From contig JACPHL010000187.1 in NCBI GenBank assembly GCA_016188625.1, forward strand, positions 1 to 6,417: a stretch of 6,417 bases of DNA. Reading direction: 5' to 3'. Positions within the stretch are counted from its first letter, which is position 1; each line of letters starts with the position of its first letter. The notes under the pieces are model-generated. The model was not told the origin of the DNA. It ran no database searches and saw only the letters and a program-made list of their open reading frames with translations. This stretch comes from Candidatus Rokuibacteriota bacterium (GTDB lineage Bacteria; Methylomirabilota; Methylomirabilia; Rokubacteriales; JACPHL01). Shown here piece by piece: positions 90 to 6,417 of the stretch. A program made the translations under genes and the position numbers.

Positions 90-1334
90 CTAGCCGGCGC
101 GGGCGGTGGGCCGGTTCCGCTCCAGGATCCGGGAGGCCTTGAGGATGTCCAGGGCCCGCTGGAGCTGGAGATCCCGCTTCTGCTCCTCGGCCTCGTCCTT
201 GGGCGGCGGCAGAGGCTTGGCCTCGTCGGGCTTCGGCGGCTCGACCACGATGTCCGGGGTGACCCCCTTGCCGTGGATCGAGCGCCCCTTGGGGGTGAAG
301 TACTTGGCCGTGGTGAGCCGGAGGCCCGAGCCGTCGGAGAGCGAGATGATGGTCTGGACGGAGCCCTTGCCGAAGGTGGGGATGCCGAGGACGATCCCCC
401 GCCCCCAGTCCTGGATGGCCCCGGCCACGATCTCCGAGGCCGAGGCGCTCCCGTTGTTGACCAGGACCACCATCGGGAACTCCAGGTAGGCGTGCCGGGC
501 GTGGGCGCTGAAGCGCATGTTCTGGCTCCGGACCCGCCCCTCCGTGTAGACGATCAGCTTCCCGTCCCCCAGGAACTTCTCCGCGGCCTCCACCGCCGCC
601 GACAGGAGGCCGCCGGGGTTGTTCCGGAGGTCGAGGACGAGCCCCTCGATCCGGCCGTTCTTGGTGAACTTCTCGAGGGCCGCATCGAGGTCCCGGCCCG
701 TGCGCTCCTGGAACTGCCGGATCCGGATCAGCCCGAAGCCGGGCTCGATCTCCTGGGCCTTGACGCTCTGGACCTGGATGATCTCGCGGGTCAGGGTGAG
801 GTCGAAGATCTCCTTGGCCCCCTCGCGGAGGATCGAGATGGTGACCTTGGTCCCCTTCGGCCCGCGCATCCGCTTCACGGCGTCCAGCAGGCTCATGTCC
901 TTGGTGGGGAGCCCCTCGATCCTGAGGATCTTGTCCCCGGGCTGGATCCCGGCGCGGTGGGCGGGCGTCCCCTCGATGGGGGCCACCACCGTCAGCTGGT
1001 CGTCCCGGACGGTGATCTCGATCCCCAGCCCCCCGAAGCTCCCCGAGGTCTCGACCTGCATCTCCCGGTACATCTCCGGGTCCAGGAAGGCGCTGTGGGG
1101 ATCCAGGGCGCGCAGCATCCCCCGCACCGCCCCGTAGATCACCTCGCGCGGGTTGGTCTCCTCGACGTACTGGTTCTGGACGATGGAGAGGATCTCGGTG
1201 AAGAGCTTGAGCTGCTCGTAGGTGGCCCCGGGATCGACGGCCTTGGAGGCGAGGGTCCCTCCCAGGCTCAGGGTGAGGAGGACGAGGATGGCGGCGGCCA
1301 CCAGGGCCTTCTTCATCGGCTGCACCGAACGCAT
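90..1334 (-). CDS. ctpA: C-terminal processing peptidase, S41 family (CtpA/Prc type)
   Basis: This is a periplasmic, PDZ-containing serine protease with a Ser/Lys dyad that trims or degrades exported proteins from their C-termini. The 414-residue protein has a signal peptide or anchor at 8-29 (KKALVAAAILVLLTLSLGGT) and a helical cap with YGAVRGMLRALDPHSAFLDPE (67-87). A PDZ domain follows at about 98-185 (GGLGIEI at 101-107, AGIQPGDKILRIEG at 128-141), then the S41 core with LDLRNNPGG (234-242). The catalytic residues can be placed by the conserved spacing known from E. coli Prc (Ser to Lys 25, Lys to Gln 4): S298 in NNGSASASEI, K323 and Q327 in FGKGSVQ. All are intact, so the enzyme should be active. 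The tail after residue 365 is proline-rich, then charged and probably helical. It lies 37 bp after envC in the same direction, so co-transcription with ftsEX-envC is plausible. In Pseudomonas aeruginosa a CtpA degrades peptidoglycan hydrolases; a similar role here is inference. Confidence 0.95.
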   Translation of the reverse strand: MRSVQPMKKALVAAAILVLLTLSLGGTLASKAVDPGATYEQLKLFTEILSIVQNQYVEETNPREVIYGAVRGMLRALDPHSAFLDPEMYREMQVETSGSFGGLGIEITVRDDQLTVVAPIEGTPAHRAGIQPGDKILRIEGLPTKDMSLLDAVKRMRGPKGTKVTISILREGAKEIFDLTLTREIIQVQSVKAQEIEPGFGLIRIRQFQERTGRDLDAALEKFTKNGRIEGLVLDLRNNPGGLLSAAVEAAEKFLGDGKLIVYTEGRVRSQNMRFSAHARHAYLEFPMVVLVNNGSASASEIVAGAIQDWGRGIVLGIPTFGKGSVQTIISLSDGSGLRLTTAKYFTPKGRSIHGKGVTPDIVVEPPKPDEAKPLPPPKDEAEEQKRDLQLQRALDILKASRILERNRPTARAG

Positions 1335-1341
1335 GGAAGGG

Positions 1342-1349
1342 ACCTCCTT
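1342..1349 (-). promoter_or_regulatory. Perfect Shine-Dalgarno for ctpA
   Basis: The minus strand carries AAGGAGGT, fully complementary to the anti-Shine-Dalgarno end of 16S rRNA, 7 nt before the ATG at 1334. It decides the ctpA start in favour of M1 (1334) rather than the second methionine (residue 7), which would be 25 nt from the site. It is by far the strongest ribosome-binding site in the window; ftsE and the AsmA-like gene have none, and ftsX and envC at most a weak G-rich tract. Confidence 0.85.
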
Positions 1350-1361
1350 GAAGGATATCCG

Positions 1362-1374
1362 CTATACTATACTA
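1362..1374 (-). repeat. Short TAGTA direct repeat in the envC-ctpA spacer, containing the envC stop
   Basis: The minus strand reads TAGTATAGTATAG, which is two copies of TAGTA plus TAG, and the first TAG is the envC stop codon. It is one of very few AT-rich spots in the window. It contains TATAGT (1371-1366), a 5-of-6 match to a -10 box, but no convincing -35 box lies 16-18 bp upstream, where the sequence is coding and GC-rich. It may be a weak promoter for ctpA or simply a spacer. Confidence 0.3.
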
Positions 1375-2553
1375 CAACCCGCGCCTGAGCCACTCCTGGG
1401 GATCTTCGGGGCGGCCCTGGGCGCGGACCTCGAAGTAGAGGCGCGGCCCGTCCAGCGAGCCGGTCTCGCCGATCCGCCCGATGACCTGGCCCTGGCTCAC
1501 CCGCTCATCCTCCCGCACCAGGATCTCCGAGGCGTGGGCGTACACGGTGGTGTACCCGTGGTCGTGGTCGAGGATGATGAGGTTACCGTACCCCTTGAAC
1601 CACCCGGTGTAGAGCACGGCCCCGTCGTAGACCGCCCGGATCTCGCTCCCCTCCACGGCCTCGATCTCGACCCCGTTCCGCTGGGTCTGGGTGCCGAAGC
1701 GAGGGTGGACCTGGCGACCGAACCCGCCCACCACCCGGCCGGCGGCCGGCCAGGGGAGCCGGCCCCGGAGGGCCCCGAACCCGACCTCGGGCGCGACGCG
1801 GCCGTCCACCGGGGGGCGCTTGCGGGCCACCGCGACCTTGCGGGTGAGGTCGCGGATCAGGGCCTCGAGGCGGCGGCCCGCCTCCTCCAGCTCGAGGGCC
1901 ATCCGCTCACGGGTCACCCGATCTTCGCGCACGCGCGCCAGGAGGACCCGCCGTCGCTCCGCCTCGCGATCGATGGCCTGCCGCTCCCGCTCGGCGGCCT
2001 GGCGGAGCGCCCCCAGCTCCCGACGGTGGCGCTCCACCGCCTCCTGGCGGACCGTGAGCCGCTCGGCCCGGGCGCCGTACGCCTCGACGAGGCGGAGGTC
2101 GTGGAGGGCGAGGGTCCGGAGCGCCCGCGCGGCGCCGGCCCGCGTCTCTTCCCCGGGGCTCAGGAGCGGACCCGGGGCGACGGCCACCAGCTTGTAGAGC
2201 CTCCGAAGCCGCTCGGCGGCAGCCTCCTGCTGGGCGGTGAGCCGTTGCGCGAGCGCCCCCCGGTCCCCTTCGAGGGCCCGGAGCTCCCGCTCGAGCCGCT
2301 GGAGGCGGACGTCCAGGCGACTGAGCTCCCGGCGCTTGACCGCCAGGAGCCGATCGGTGGCCTCGAGCTCCGCCAGGAGCGACCCCTCCTGCCGCCGGGC
2401 CCGATCGGCCAGGGCCCGCTCCTGGCGGAGCTGGCGCCGGACCTGGTCGAGGGCCTTCTGCTGCTCCCGGAGCGTCTCCTTGGCGGGGTGGGCCGCCACC
2501 GGCAGCGCGACGGCGAGGAGCAGGAGCCCGAGAAGCCGCGTCAGCCCTCTCAC
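1372..2553 (-). CDS. envC: Murein hydrolase activator EnvC (degenerate LytM/M23 domain)
   Basis: EnvC is a periplasmic protein that binds FtsX and switches on N-acetylmuramyl-L-alanine amidases for daughter-cell separation. The GTG at 2553 is chosen over an ATG at 2631: it overlaps the ftsX stop as GTGA and puts a clean signal peptide at residue 1 (RGLTRLLGLLLLAVALPVAA, probable cleavage near A21). The ATG would add 26 arginine-rich residues overlapping ftsX. The mature 393-codon product has a long, Arg/Glu/Gln-rich coiled coil in two arms at about 26-122 and 145-245, with a Pro/Gly break at about 126-134. The C-terminal LytM domain runs from about 266 to 390. Residues that bind zinc in active M23 enzymes are replaced: R292 and E296 in the HxxxD position and R371-L-Y373 in the HxH position; H340 in VYAHAS remains. 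The ending RLYFEVRAQG..DPQEWL closely resembles E. coli EnvC. It is therefore an activator, not a peptidase. Confidence 0.92.
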   Translation of the reverse strand: MRGLTRLLGLLLLAVALPVAAHPAKETLREQQKALDQVRRQLRQERALADRARRQEGSLLAELEATDRLLAVKRRELSRLDVRLQRLERELRALEGDRGALAQRLTAQQEAAAERLRRLYKLVAVAPGPLLSPGEETRAGAARALRTLALHDLRLVEAYGARAERLTVRQEAVERHRRELGALRQAAERERQAIDREAERRRVLLARVREDRVTRERMALELEEAGRRLEALIRDLTRKVAVARKRPPVDGRVAPEVGFGALRGRLPWPAAGRVVGGFGRQVHPRFGTQTQRNGVEIEAVEGSEIRAVYDGAVLYTGWFKGYGNLIILDHDHGYTTVYAHASEILVREDERVSQGQVIGRIGETGSLDGPRLYFEVRAQGRPEDPQEWLRRGL

Positions 2554-3428
2554 CGGGTCCGCCCGCCCAGCAGCCCGCCGAACGCTCCCAGCCCGCACCC
2601 ACCCAGGACCAAGGCGAGGGCCTCCCGCCATCCGAGGAACGCCGGGGTCTCGAGGCCGAGCCCCTCACGGAGGGCCGGGCCGAGGTGCCGCAGCAGGGGG
2701 GGCTCGGCCAGGACGAGCAGCCCGACCGCGGCGAGGGCGCCCAAGGCCCCGTGGATCACCCCGCCGAGGATCAGCGGGAGCCGGACGGTGGCTCCCGTCG
2801 CCCCGACCAGGCGGGCGAGGGTCGCCTCCTCCCGCCCCGCCACCCCCGCGAAGGTGCTGGCGGTCGCGACCGCCAGCAACGCGACCAGGGCCAGGAGCCC
2901 GCCGAGTCCCAGGCCGAGGCCGATGAGGACCCGCCGGCCCCCCTCGGCCCACTCCACCCACCGCCCCGGGCCCTGGACCTCCTCGACCCCGGGCAGGGCC
3001 TCGAGCCCCCGGATGAGGGCCCGCAGGCCGACCGCCGAGAGGGCCGGGTCCGGGGCGATCTCGACGGACGCCGGCAGGGGGTTCGACGGCAGCCGCGCCA
3101 GGAGCGCCCCGTCGGCGCCCAGGTAGGCGTGGAGCTCCCCCATGGCCTCATCCGGGGAGATCCAGCGCCACTCCCGCACCCCTCCGAGGGTCCTGAGCCC
3201 CGCGAGCCACTCCTCGCGCTGCGCCGGCTCCTCGTCGAGATAGAGGACGATCCGCACCTGCTCACGCCACCCGGTCACGATCCGCTCCAGGTTCTCCTCA
3301 AGGATCAGGGCGCTGCCGGCGGCCAGGACGGCGAGGAACACCAGGAGGAAGGCCCCCAGCCCCGCCGCCCGGCTCCGGCGCAGGTCGCGGAGGGTCGCCT
3401 CCACGAGGAAGGGGACGTGGCTACCCAT
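2550..3428 (-). CDS. ftsX: Cell division membrane protein FtsX
   Basis: FtsX is the inner-membrane partner of FtsE; its large periplasmic loop contacts murein hydrolase activators such as EnvC. At 292 residues it has the usual FtsX plan: a short cytoplasmic N-terminus with LRDLRRSR, TM1 at about 23-43, a periplasmic domain at about 44-165, then three further hydrophobic segments at about 168-192, 217-241 and 267-288. The periplasmic domain contains QVRIVLYLDEE (57-67), the common W/ISPDEAMGEL region (89-99) and LPASVEI (118-124), the last being a strongly conserved FtsX feature. The loop between TM2 and TM3 has REEATLARLVGAT, the stretch expected to contact FtsE. The ATG at 3428 overlaps the end of ftsE by 8 bp, and the TGA at 2552-2550 overlaps the envC GTG start, which suggests tightly coupled translation at fixed stoichiometry. 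A G-rich tract before the start is only a weak ribosome-binding candidate. Confidence 0.95.
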   Translation of the reverse strand: MGSHVPFLVEATLRDLRRSRAAGLGAFLLVFLAVLAAGSALILEENLERIVTGWREQVRIVLYLDEEPAQREEWLAGLRTLGGVREWRWISPDEAMGELHAYLGADGALLARLPSNPLPASVEIAPDPALSAVGLRALIRGLEALPGVEEVQGPGRWVEWAEGGRRVLIGLGLGLGGLLALVALLAVATASTFAGVAGREEATLARLVGATGATVRLPLILGGVIHGALGALAAVGLLVLAEPPLLRHLGPALREGLGLETPAFLGWREALALVLGGCGLGAFGGLLGGRTR

Positions 3429-4110
3429 CCCCCGCCCGGGCCATCTCCCCCTCGAGGCGACCGCCCGCGAGGAGAAGGGTCCGACACTGAAGTCGCTCGG
3501 CGACCGCGCGCTGGTGGGTGGCCACGATGAGCGTGGCCCCGCGGGCGTGGACGCCCCTCAGGACCTCGAGGATCTCGCCGGCGGCGTCTCCGTCCAGGCT
3601 CCCCGTCGGCTCGTCCGCCAGGAGCAGCGGCGGCTCGGTCACCAGCGCCCGGGCCAGGGCCAGGCGCTGGCGGCCCTCCGCCGAGAGCTCGGCCAGGCGC
3701 GCGTTCGGCCGCCGGTGGAGCCCGACGCTCCGGAGGGCCTCGAGGACCCGCTCACGGAGCTCGTGCCGGGGCGTCCCCTGGACGCGGAGGACGAAGGCCA
3801 CGTTCCCGGCCACGGTCCGGTCGGCGAGGAGGCGGCCGTCCTGGAAGACGATCCCGATCCGGCGCCGGAGGTGGGCGACCGCCCGCGGCCCGAACCGGCT
3901 CACCTCCTCCCCGGCGACCACCACCTCGCCCTCCGTGGGGAGCTCCTCGCGGGAGACGAGCCGGAGCACGGTCGTCTTCCCCGCCCCGCTCGGACCGAAG
4001 AGGCAGACCATCTCGTCCTGCCCCACGGCGAAGGTCACCCCGGTCAGGGCGGGAACCGGCCTGCCCCGGCCTCGGCCGTAGACCTTGGAGACATGACGGA
4101 ATTCGACCAT
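3421..4110 (-). CDS. ftsE: Cell division ATP-binding protein FtsE
   Basis: FtsE is the cytoplasmic ATPase of the FtsEX complex, which acts at the divisome and transmits ATP-driven changes through FtsX to peptidoglycan hydrolase regulators. The 229-residue length is typical. Visible motifs are VEFRHVSKVYG at the start, Walker A GPSGAGKT (39-46), the Q-loop IVFQDGRLLADRTV (87-100, Q90) with the FtsE-type FQDxRLLxDRTV pattern, Walker B and D-loop LLLADEPTGSLD (162-173), and the H-loop histidine H199 in VATHQ. The ABC signature is unusual: LSAEGRQR (142-149) where FtsE normally has LSGGEQQR, so both conserved glycines are replaced while the serine and the final QR remain. The ATG at 4110 is the earliest possible start, because a TGA lies two codons upstream in frame. 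No ribosome-binding site precedes it, and a TATAAT box sits about 10 nt away, so the mRNA may be leaderless. The 3' end overlaps ftsX by 8 bp. Confidence 0.95.
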   Translation of the reverse strand: MVEFRHVSKVYGRGRGRPVPALTGVTFAVGQDEMVCLFGPSGAGKTTVLRLVSREELPTEGEVVVAGEEVSRFGPRAVAHLRRRIGIVFQDGRLLADRTVAGNVAFVLRVQGTPRHELRERVLEALRSVGLHRRPNARLAELSAEGRQRLALARALVTEPPLLLADEPTGSLDGDAAGEILEVLRGVHARGATLIVATHQRAVAERLQCRTLLLAGGRLEGEMARAGDG

Positions 4111-4120
4111 GAATCATTCG

Positions 4121-4150
4121 ATTATAGAAACCGCGCCCGAGGGCACGCAA
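4121..4150 (-). promoter_or_regulatory. Sigma70-type promoter for ftsE-ftsX-envC, giving a near-leaderless mRNA
   Basis: Reading the minus strand, a perfect TATAAT -10 box lies at 4126-4121, preceded after an 18-bp spacer by TTGCGT at 4150-4145 (3 of 6 matches to TTGACA, with the TTG intact). The usual spacing from the -10 box would put the start of transcription near 4114 (an A), only about 4 nt before the ftsE ATG at 4110. The 43-bp gap is markedly more AT-rich than its surroundings, so the match is unlikely to be base composition alone. This would make the division genes a transcription unit separate from gatB and the AsmA-like gene. The -10 match is seen directly; promoter activity and start site are inferred. 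Confidence 0.6.
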
Positions 4151-4153
4151 CTT

Positions 4154-5944
4154 TTAAAAGCCCCCGCGAAGGACCGACAGACGCGGCCTCGACAGCGAGC
4201 CTCCGAGCAACCCCTCCAGCGGCTCGTCCCGGCGCCGGCCGTGGAGCCGCACCTCGAGTTCCCCCCCGAGCTCCACGCGCCCCCGCCCCGAGAGCTCCCA
4301 CGTCGGACCCCGCCCGCGGAGCCCCCGGATGGTGACGGTCGTCCCCCTCACCTCGTAGGGCACCCGGAGCTCCTCGACGGTGACGGTGCGCCCGCCGAGG
4401 CGATCGGAGGCGGGGACGCGGAGCCACCCGTGCTCCAGCGCGAGCACCCCGTGACCGCGGGCGGTCTCGAGGAGCTCCGGCCAGGAGAGCCCGCGCCAGC
4501 GGAGCGCCAGCTCCCCCCTCACCAGCCCGCCCCCGCGCCCCGGCCAGTCCCCGGCGGTAAGTCGGAGGAGGGGGCCCAGGGTGAGGTGCGCGCCCGAGAG
4601 CCGGAGCCGCCCCTCGCGGGTGGTCGGGTCCAGGGTCGCGGAGCCGACCGTCTCGCCTCCCGCGGCCCGGAGGGCGATCCGGGAGAGCGCCCATCGGCGC
4701 GCGTCGGCCGCCAGTCGCACGACCAGACCGTCGAAGGGCACGCCCCCCCACCGTCCGGTCCTGGCCTCGAGCGCCCCCACGAGGCGGAACGGGGCCGCGC
4801 CGCGGCGCCGCCCCTCGAGCCGGAGCTCACCCCGCCGCACGGTGATCGGAGGGAGGGGGCCTCCCGGGAGCCGGAGGCTCGCGTCGCTCACGGCCAGGCG
4901 ACCCCGGAGCTCAGGGGCCATCAGGCCCCGGACCTCCACCCCCACCGCTCCCGTCACCTCGCCCCCCACCTCGACCGTCCGGCCCTGCACCTCGAGGCTC
5001 AGGCGGTCCAGGGGGAACCGGTCCGTCCTCGCGCTGAGGGTCAGCCGATCGGGCGCGAGGGTCGCCTCCGCCTCGATCTCCACCGGCCCGAGCCGGACGA
5101 TGAGGGGCCGGACCAGGAGCCTGCGCTCGCTCTGAAGGCTCGCCGTGAGCAGCCCCGGCTCGCCCCGCCGCTTGACGAAGCCGGGGAGGGCGAGCTCGGC
5201 GGGGGTGAAATCGAGCCTCGCCTCGAGGGTCGAGCGCCCCGCCGGTCTGACGACGAGGGAGAACGGCCCGTCCAGCGCGAGGGGCCCGCTCCGGAGATCG
5301 CGGACCGTCCCCTCGGCCTCGAGGGTCGCGGTGAGCGGCTCGAGGCGGCCGACGAAGCGCACCGGGGGAGAGGCGATCTCGCCGGCCACCCACAACCCCT
5401 CCGGGGCGCGCGTGACCGCCCCGGTGATCCCGTCGAGCACCGCCGAGCGCCCGCCGCCGGCCAGCTCGAGTCGGCCACCCTCCACGGCGATCGCTGCCGG
5501 GAGGGCCGGGGCCGGCCCGGGGCGGCCCGGCTCGCCGCGGCCCTCGCGGGGCGGCGGGGCTCCCGGGCGCGGCCGGGAAGCGGTGCCCCCCCACCACCCG
5601 TCCTCCAGGCGGAGCACGAGCCGGGGCTCGAGGAGTCTCACCGTGCCCGCCGCGAGGCGCCCGGCCAGGAGTGGGAACGGGTCGATGGCCACCACGAGCC
5701 GTCGCGCCTCGAGGTACGGGGCGGGGGCGCCGGGGAGGGTGGCGGTCAGCCCGTCCAGCGTGAGCCGGAGGGGCGGCCAGAGCGCCAGGTGCGTCCGGGT
5801 CGCCCTGACCTCGCCCGGGAGTCGCCGCTCCAGGGCGGTGAGGACGAGGGGACCAGCCTCGCGGAGGCGGAGGCCGACGGCGGCCGCGGCGCCAGCCATC
5901 ACGAGGAGGCCGGCCAGCAGGATCGCGCCGGCCCGGCGGGTCAT
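4154..5944 (-). CDS. AsmA-like inner-membrane-anchored protein (AsmA family, putative)
   Basis: This is a 596-residue protein. Residues 1-4 (MTRR) are basic and residues 5-25 form one hydrophobic segment, giving an N-in signal anchor with the rest in the periplasm. After it, RATRTHLALWPPLRLTLDG (47-65) fits the N-terminal AsmA pattern, and the remainder is made of repeated short amphipathic beta strands, ending in a typical AsmA-like tail (EGLLGGSLSRPRLSVL, 577-592). E. coli AsmA is 617 residues, so the length fits. AsmA-family proteins are thought to form beta-groove structures that carry lipids between membranes, but no cargo can be read from the sequence. A Pro/Arg/Gly-rich stretch at about 121-149 looks like a disordered linker. 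The ATG at 5944 is chosen because it gives the signal anchor immediately and overlaps the gatB stop as ATGA; upstream in-frame sequence (to 6154) lies inside gatB. No Shine-Dalgarno precedes it, so translational coupling to gatB is likely. The family call rests on pattern, not on a profile search. Confidence 0.75.
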   Translation of the reverse strand: MTRRAGAILLAGLLVMAGAAAAVGLRLREAGPLVLTALERRLPGEVRATRTHLALWPPLRLTLDGLTATLPGAPAPYLEARRLVVAIDPFPLLAGRLAAGTVRLLEPRLVLRLEDGWWGGTASRPRPGAPPPREGRGEPGRPGPAPALPAAIAVEGGRLELAGGGRSAVLDGITGAVTRAPEGLWVAGEIASPPVRFVGRLEPLTATLEAEGTVRDLRSGPLALDGPFSLVVRPAGRSTLEARLDFTPAELALPGFVKRRGEPGLLTASLQSERRLLVRPLIVRLGPVEIEAEATLAPDRLTLSARTDRFPLDRLSLEVQGRTVEVGGEVTGAVGVEVRGLMAPELRGRLAVSDASLRLPGGPLPPITVRRGELRLEGRRRGAAPFRLVGALEARTGRWGGVPFDGLVVRLAADARRWALSRIALRAAGGETVGSATLDPTTREGRLRLSGAHLTLGPLLRLTAGDWPGRGGGLVRGELALRWRGLSWPELLETARGHGVLALEHGWLRVPASDRLGGRTVTVEELRVPYEVRGTTVTIRGLRGRGPTWELSGRGRVELGGELEVRLHGRRRDEPLEGLLGGSLSRPRLSVLRGGF

Positions 5945-6417
5945 GGCCCGGATGGAGGCGGGAGGCGTTCGGAGAGGAGCCGGTTCACCAGCTGGGGGTT
6001 GGCCTGCCCGCGGGTCGCCTTCATGACCTGGCCGACCAGGAAGCCCAGGCTTTGCTTCTTCCCCTTCTGCCAGTCGCCCACCGCCGCGGGGTGGGCGGCG
6101 AGAACCGCCTCGATGACCCGCACCAGCTCGGACTCGTCGGAGACCTGGACCCACCCCTTCCTGGCCACGATCTCCTCCGCGGAGGCCCGGGGCTCCCGGA
6201 ACATCGCGTCGAGGACATCCTTCGCGATCCTCCCGCTGATGACCCCCTGCTCGAGGAGCCGGAGGAGCCCGGCCAGACGTTCCGGGGGGAGGATCTCGAT
6301 CCAGGAGGCCGGGGCAGCGTCCCCGGCCGCTCCCTCGGCCCGGAGGCGCCCGAAGACCTCCGTGGTGATCCAGTTGGACACGAGCCGGGGCTGGGAGACC
6401 CGCGTCACGACCTGCTC
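5941..6417 (-). CDS. gatB: Asp-tRNA(Asn)/Glu-tRNA(Gln) amidotransferase subunit B, C-terminal part (5' end outside window)
   Basis: GatB is the tRNA-binding and kinase-like subunit of the cytoplasmic GatCAB complex, which converts Glu-tRNA(Gln) and/or Asp-tRNA(Asn) to the amidated forms. The visible 158 residues begin in mid-protein (E-Q-V-V-T-R at the window edge) and run to a TGA at 5943-5941. The frame stays open to the window edge, and the GTG at 6408 is an internal valine, not a start. The segment LVSNWITTEVFGRL is typical of the GatB middle/C-terminal junction. It is followed by the helical GatB/YqeY tail domain, with VISGRIAKDVLDAMF, the conserved GWVQVSDE stretch, and the ending KGKKQSLGFLVGQVMKATRG plus NPQLVNRLL, which matches the usual K-x-xx-GFLVGQ-M-K-x-T-x-G-x-A-NP signature. 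GatB is normally about 480 residues, so roughly the last third is present. The stop codon overlaps the start of the AsmA-like gene (ATGA). Identification is firm; only the 5' part is missing. Confidence 0.95.
   Translation of the reverse strand, partial: EQVVTRVSQPRLVSNWITTEVFGRLRAEGAAGDAAPASWIEILPPERLAGLLRLLEQGVISGRIAKDVLDAMFREPRASAEEIVARKGWVQVSDESELVRVIEAVLAAHPAAVGDWQKGKKQSLGFLVGQVMKATRGQANPQLVNRLLSERLPPPSGP

Follow-up and report, generated by a model that had tools for sequence, protein, structure and literature searches.

Starts at which a −10 box lies almost against the start codon are known from several lineages but have been little studied. In Deinococcus, experiments identified this layout as a −10 region giving leaderless or shortened-leader mRNA; the motif lies about 6–7 bp from the ORF in about one-third of genes (PMC12340547). 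More broadly in Deinococcus-Thermus, many genes of mixed function have TANNNT directly before the start codon and no Shine-Dalgarno (SD) sequence, and the −35 element is dispensable in these −10-adjacent genes (PMC12340547). Actinobacteria, including mycobacteria, likewise have a TANNNT −10 box near the start, with SD-led and leaderless genes side by side (PMC3898074, PMC4633059, PMC8485053), and mycobacterial leaderless initiation needs an RTG codon (ATG or GTG) exactly at +1 (PMC4633059). In the TA-led genes of Zheng et al. 2011 (PMC3160421), a TA-like signal about 10 bp before the start is the mark of leaderlessness; Methylomirabilota/Rokubacteria are not among the leaderless groups listed there. 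Haloarchaeal hsp70 (PMC4574771), also a conserved gene, has a very short SD-less leader and constrained bases around its start codon, although it depends on archaeal machinery and is translated from an mRNA with a measured 4-nt 5′-UTR.

The ftsE gene on a 6,417-nt stretch of DNA (the window, analyzed over its whole length) and its counterparts across Rokubacteriales share the main features of these systems, namely a TANNNT box near the start, the missing SD and, for the wider set of such genes in the order, mixed functions. They differ from Deinococcus in that the Rokubacteriales boxes peak at 6–10 nt from the start, in roughly 6–9% of genes, and are closer to the full TATAAT, with ftsE at 10–16 nt (PMC12340547). 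They differ from mycobacteria, and from hsp70 with its measured leader, in that ftsE is predicted to retain a leader of 3–9 nt. The −10-adjacent layout is already known (PMC3160421, PMC12340547); what appears to be new is its occurrence in Rokubacteriales, for which we found no prior report. The literature search, with subscription journals mostly outside its scope, yielded no paper joining leaderless genes with Rokubacteria.

The window belongs to a fragmented genome (2.6 Mb, 84% complete), and its genes are listed in Table 1. TIGR02673 is by far the best family for FtsE (228.1 bits), yet this is below the curated cut-off of 264.85, and FtsX also scores below the cut-off of its family (138 bits against TIGR00439). 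The genomic context fits FtsE, with FtsX adjoining, an EnvC-type M23 partner downstream and this order kept across genomes. In the ABC signature of the window’s FtsE (residues 142–149), LSAEGRQR stands in place of the LSQGEAQR or LSGGERQR of relatives in the order, so that the G/E pair is displaced; Walker A, Walker B and the H-loop appear unaltered. The ORF between gatB and ftsE matched TIGR04411 below cut-off (E 4e-6) and had no Pfam match. This large ORF also occurs at that place in one relative (G002, locus L278) and is absent there from most of the order, in which gatB is the usual direct upstream neighbor of ftsE (most of 36 loci).

Table 1. Coordinates of genes and start-region features in the window.
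Feature	Position	Strand	Basis
ctpA, S41 C-terminal processing peptidase	90..1334	−	TIGR00225, PF03572
Shine-Dalgarno AAGGAGGT of ctpA, 7 nt 5′ of the ctpA ATG	1342..1349	−	Sequence
envC-like murein hydrolase activator, GTG start	1372..2553	−	NF008644 EnvC, PF01551 Peptidase_M23
ftsX	2550..3428	−	TIGR00439, PF18075 (FtsX_ECD)
ftsE, 229 aa, ATG start	3421..4110	−	TIGR02673, PF00005, M1 alignment with relatives
Predicted ultra-short leader AUUC	4111..4114	−	Inferred from standard −10 to +1 spacing; start near A4114, 1–2 nt leeway either side
In-frame TGA, two codons 5′ of the ftsE ATG	4114..4116	−	Sequence
−10 box TATAAT of the ftsE promoter (almost certainly)	4121..4126	−	Sequence; TA[T/G]AAT at the same place in 36/37 order members
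Weak −35-like TTGCGT (3/6), separated from the −10 box by a spacer of 18; unlikely to be a true −35 element	4145..4150	−	No conserved −35 in box-anchored profile of order members
ORF between gatB and ftsE, earlier called AsmA-like	4154..5944	−	Weak GspN match only
gatB, 3′ part	5941..6417	−	PF02637 GatB_Yqey

The region around the ftsE start has the minus-strand sequence TTGCGTGCCCTCGGGCGCGGTTTC-TATAAT-CGAATGATTC-ATGGTCGAATTC, and coding begins ATG GTC GAA TTC. The box (4126–4121) is the sole TATAAT on either strand of the window, which has a GC content of 74.6%, and it ends 10 nt 5′ of the ATG at 4110. This ATG is the correct ftsE start, as it lines up with the first residue (M1) of the other FtsE proteins in the alignment; the TGA in frame with it excludes an upstream in-frame start, and a further ATG, at 4117, belongs to another frame and lies 5′ of the predicted transcription start. 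No SD-like core was found between the box and the ATG in the window. Nor was there a consensus −35 element 5′ of the box (TTGCGT is the best match), an extended −10 at the box or, in a sigma-70 scan requiring both hexamers, any two-hexamer promoter reported for the window. A terminator-like hairpin near the ftsE start (4147–4132) was dropped as being at chance level (1 found vs 0.7 expected). The preliminary description had named the same box, start codon, in-frame stop and missing SD, as well as operon overlaps of 8 bp (ftsE/ftsX, 3421–3428) and GTGA (ftsX/envC, 2553–2550, containing the envC GTG start), and the sequence, the alignment and the coordinates bear all of this out.

That description also set an alignment of the upstream region in relatives as a test of its reading. 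We took the operon from 37 relatives, one of which lacked a true ftsE on the stretch taken, so that with the window the set comprised 37 sequences. The relatives are 46–56% identical in FtsE and fall into four families, with the window’s genome alone in its family within the set searched; the gene order gatB-(AsmA-like)-ftsE-ftsX-envC-ctpA is kept wherever the contig is long enough. Using a criterion of at least a 5/6 match to TATAAT no more than 30 nt before the ftsE start, TA[T/G]AAT was found in 36/37 members (31 with perfect TATAAT, 5 with TAGAAT). A 5/6 match is reached by 0.76% of random 30-nt windows from these loci and by none of the windows 40–400 nt upstream of ftsE (0/1332). In a box-anchored profile, the 36 loci agree at five of the six positions of the box and have T or G at the third, whereas most bases on either side vary; a conserved AAA/CTC stretch 16–30 nt further 5′ appears to reflect the gatB C-terminus. 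The box stays when the upstream gene changes, whether this is gatB (most members), the AsmA-like ORF (the window and G002) or other sequence (L285), which argues for a functional element attached to ftsE with the letters of a −10 region. Considering the conservation in 36/37 members vs 0/1332 control windows, the TATAAT before ftsE is almost certainly a real −10 element, judged on sequence comparison. An SD-like (GGAG-like) core precedes ftsE in 5/37 members, four of them in the TAGAAT group (L283, L286, L301, L302, L306); at four of these five TAGAAT loci, GGAG lies 3–4 nt 5′ of the ATG, where it coincides with or adjoins the bases predicted to be transcribed first. At L313 (G006), ACGTGACGGCTATAA is tandemly duplicated 5′ of ftsE, giving two successive −10-like boxes.

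Beyond the order, the box is mostly missing at the corresponding place in 80 GTDB ftsE loci, nearly all of them from outside Rokubacteriales. An FtsE-specific pattern search over the phylum gave matches in 38 genomes, all Rokubacteriales, and none in 35 others, although the pattern demands an MIE/MIQ-type start, misses the window itself and cannot establish absence outside the order.

The test thus upheld the box, which 36 of the 37 members keep, while its distance from the start varies from 10 to 16 nt (10 in 2 loci, 11 in 4, 12 in 5, 13 in 10, 14 in 13, and 15 and 16 in one each). If transcription begins the usual 6–8 nt from the box, a start near 4114 and a leader of about 4 nt are predicted for the window’s ftsE mRNA, against an SD-less leader of about 6–8 nt for most relatives, whose spacing is 13–14. 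Taking −10-adjacent starts as those with TANNNT about 6–11 nt before the start codon, ftsE of the window lies within the class at a spacing of 10, and the relatives, mostly at 13–14, lie outside this range, at the long edge of the class. As most relatives are at 13–14, strict leaderlessness is probably not the conserved state. Of the earlier proposal that ftsE is leaderless or near-leaderless, only the second half, a near-leaderless ftsE with its own −10 box, is well supported by the order-wide comparison.

ftsE is not unique in this respect. Across 40 genomes of the order, TATAAT precedes ATG at a spacing of 5–11 in 800 cases vs 50 for a reversed-pattern control, and at a spacing of 12–18 in 327 vs 59; in the window’s genome (G000), TATAATN{3,24}ATG gave 41 matches vs 1. 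We also sampled 100 stretches of G000 (913 kb, 847 modelled genes), part of which had been chosen for TATAAT...ATG matches, so that the counts lean upward; the contrast of in-frame with out-of-frame starts and an unselected 400-kb sample of a second genome (G001) are independent of this choice. TANNNT occurs 6–11 nt before ATG/GTG in frame 74 times vs 20 per out-of-frame frame in G000 (p ~6e-12) and 47 vs 14 times in G001 (p ~2e-7), an in-frame excess of about 6% and 9% of genes, respectively. From these excesses, roughly 6–9% of genes in the order look leaderless or near-leaderless. The in-frame excess is larger for GGAGG at 4–9 nt, which indicates that SD-led starts remain the commoner class, and the 16S still carries a complete anti-SD (CCTCC) in the four relatives with a matched 16S end, so the loss of the SD is gene-specific.

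The 21 TATAAT-adjacent genes in the sample include lpxK, a RarA/MgsA-type ATPase, phosphofructokinase, a MerR regulator, a response regulator, transporters and a HEPN protein; this is a set of mixed functions and not a division regulon. The RarA/MgsA-type ATPase gene is a candidate for a strictly leaderless gene with conserved spacing, to judge by TATAAT-6-ATG in G000 (L206:16781-18121) and TATAAT-6-GTG in two relatives (G019:C31:1529, G028:C33:5539); the box was not found in G003. For lpxK and pfk, no such box turned up in the genomes checked. A HEPN-domain gene and an MNT-type nucleotidyltransferase gene (L224:3592-3972 and L225:5510-5860, on separate contigs) have TATAAT directly before ATG, at spacings of 6 and 11. 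HEPN/MNT-type pairs are often toxin-antitoxin modules. In M. tuberculosis, toxin-antitoxin modules are reported to be mostly leaderless (PMC8485053).

Within the operon, the start of ftsE stands apart from those of its neighbors. Under a permissive test, SD-like sequence was found before ctpA in 24/30 loci and before ftsX in 28/36. As ftsX is also overlap-coupled in the window, the suggestion that the FtsEX-EnvC module as a whole relies on leaderless initiation is an overstatement; only ftsE has such a start. The contrast drawn earlier between an SD-led ctpA and a leaderless ftsE holds, yet it is nothing out of the ordinary, as SD-led and −10-adjacent genes occur together throughout the genome. 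Folding of the mRNA around both starts was unremarkable. A TATAGT at the end of envC (1366–1371, minus strand) lies 32 nt 5′ of the ctpA ATG; with a promoter of its own there, ctpA would have a leader of about 25 nt containing its SD. The first codons of ftsE are also distinctive: codon 2 is A/T-ending in 30/37 members (4.7 expected; mostly ATT) and codon 4 in 20/37 (1.6 expected; mostly CTT), by far the largest such excesses among the ftsE columns, and in the same loci the A/T-ending fraction at codon 2 is 0.81 for ftsE, 0.14 for ftsX and 0.27 for ctpA. This bias may hold the 5′ end of the transcript free of structure or aid start selection, or it could be a remnant of promoter sequence. It is a tentative idea, and one we regard as unlikely, that ftsE of Rokubacteriales forms a distinct, selectively kept class of ultra-short-leader mRNA (about 3–9 nt, SD-less, not leaderless), in which A/T-ending codons after the AUG (ATT at codon 2, CTT at codon 4) help to choose the start and the division operon responds in translation unlike SD-led genes. 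The role under stress suggested earlier is not supported by these results; its only precedent is one M. tuberculosis reporter pair (PMC8485053).

The reading we prefer, with a probability of about three in four, is that the division operon has a conserved, near-leaderless promoter, one of many such starts in the order. The TATAAT at 4126–4121 would be the −10 element recognized by a housekeeping sigma factor, in a promoter serving ftsE-ftsX-envC alone, from which RNA polymerase would start about 7 nt downstream of the box. The leader of about 4 nt (roughly 3–9 nt in relatives) would be too short for an SD, so that the ribosome would pick the 5′-proximal AUG of ftsE by a leaderless-type route, and ftsX and then envC would be translated by overlap coupling. 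The box, its position, its conservation, the missing SD in most members and the −10-adjacent starts elsewhere in the genome are observed; for ftsE itself, the transcription start, leader length, sigma factor and initiation mode are the inferred part. As the spacing of 13–14 in most relatives would exclude a true 5′-AUG and mycobacteria need RTG at +1, a 4–8 nt leader without an SD may follow another rule or may be poorly translated.

Transcripts running on from gatB or the AsmA-like gene could likewise provide ftsE mRNA with a long leader. Such read-through could even be the main source, with the box a real but secondary promoter and initiation occurring inside a long SD-less leader or by loose coupling to the upstream stop, given that ftsE is closely spaced with gatB and the gene in between and shares their direction, and that this stop and the ATG are 43 nt apart in the window and a few tens of nt apart in many relatives. 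We think this improbable, as read-through by itself would not preserve the box order-wide, the distance to the stop varies widely while the box is constant, and the box occupies the place that an SD would need. The box might instead be conserved for DNA-level regulation, as an operator or another site bound by protein where gatB meets ftsE, with no transcription start at this place; a 7-bp dyad (GGCGGGC...GCCCGCC) does flank it in a few genomes (L279, L300, L311). The dyad is missing in the window and most other members, the conserved letters are exactly the −10 consensus and the TATAAT-start arrangement recurs at unrelated genes, all of which make this explanation very unlikely. The dyad was dropped because of this narrow distribution. 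From a single genome, a chance AT-rich hexamer without function could not have been excluded; the conservation of the box against the empty upstream control windows refutes it, and we give it almost no weight.

A conserved near-leaderless ftsE promoter widens the range of −10-adjacent, SD-less gene starts to include an uncultured order of high GC content from soil and groundwater, and the box-to-start rule is useful for start-codon annotation in Rokubacteriales. With an order-wide near-leaderless start at variable spacing, the core gene ftsE also offers a natural series on the limit of leader length for leaderless-type initiation.
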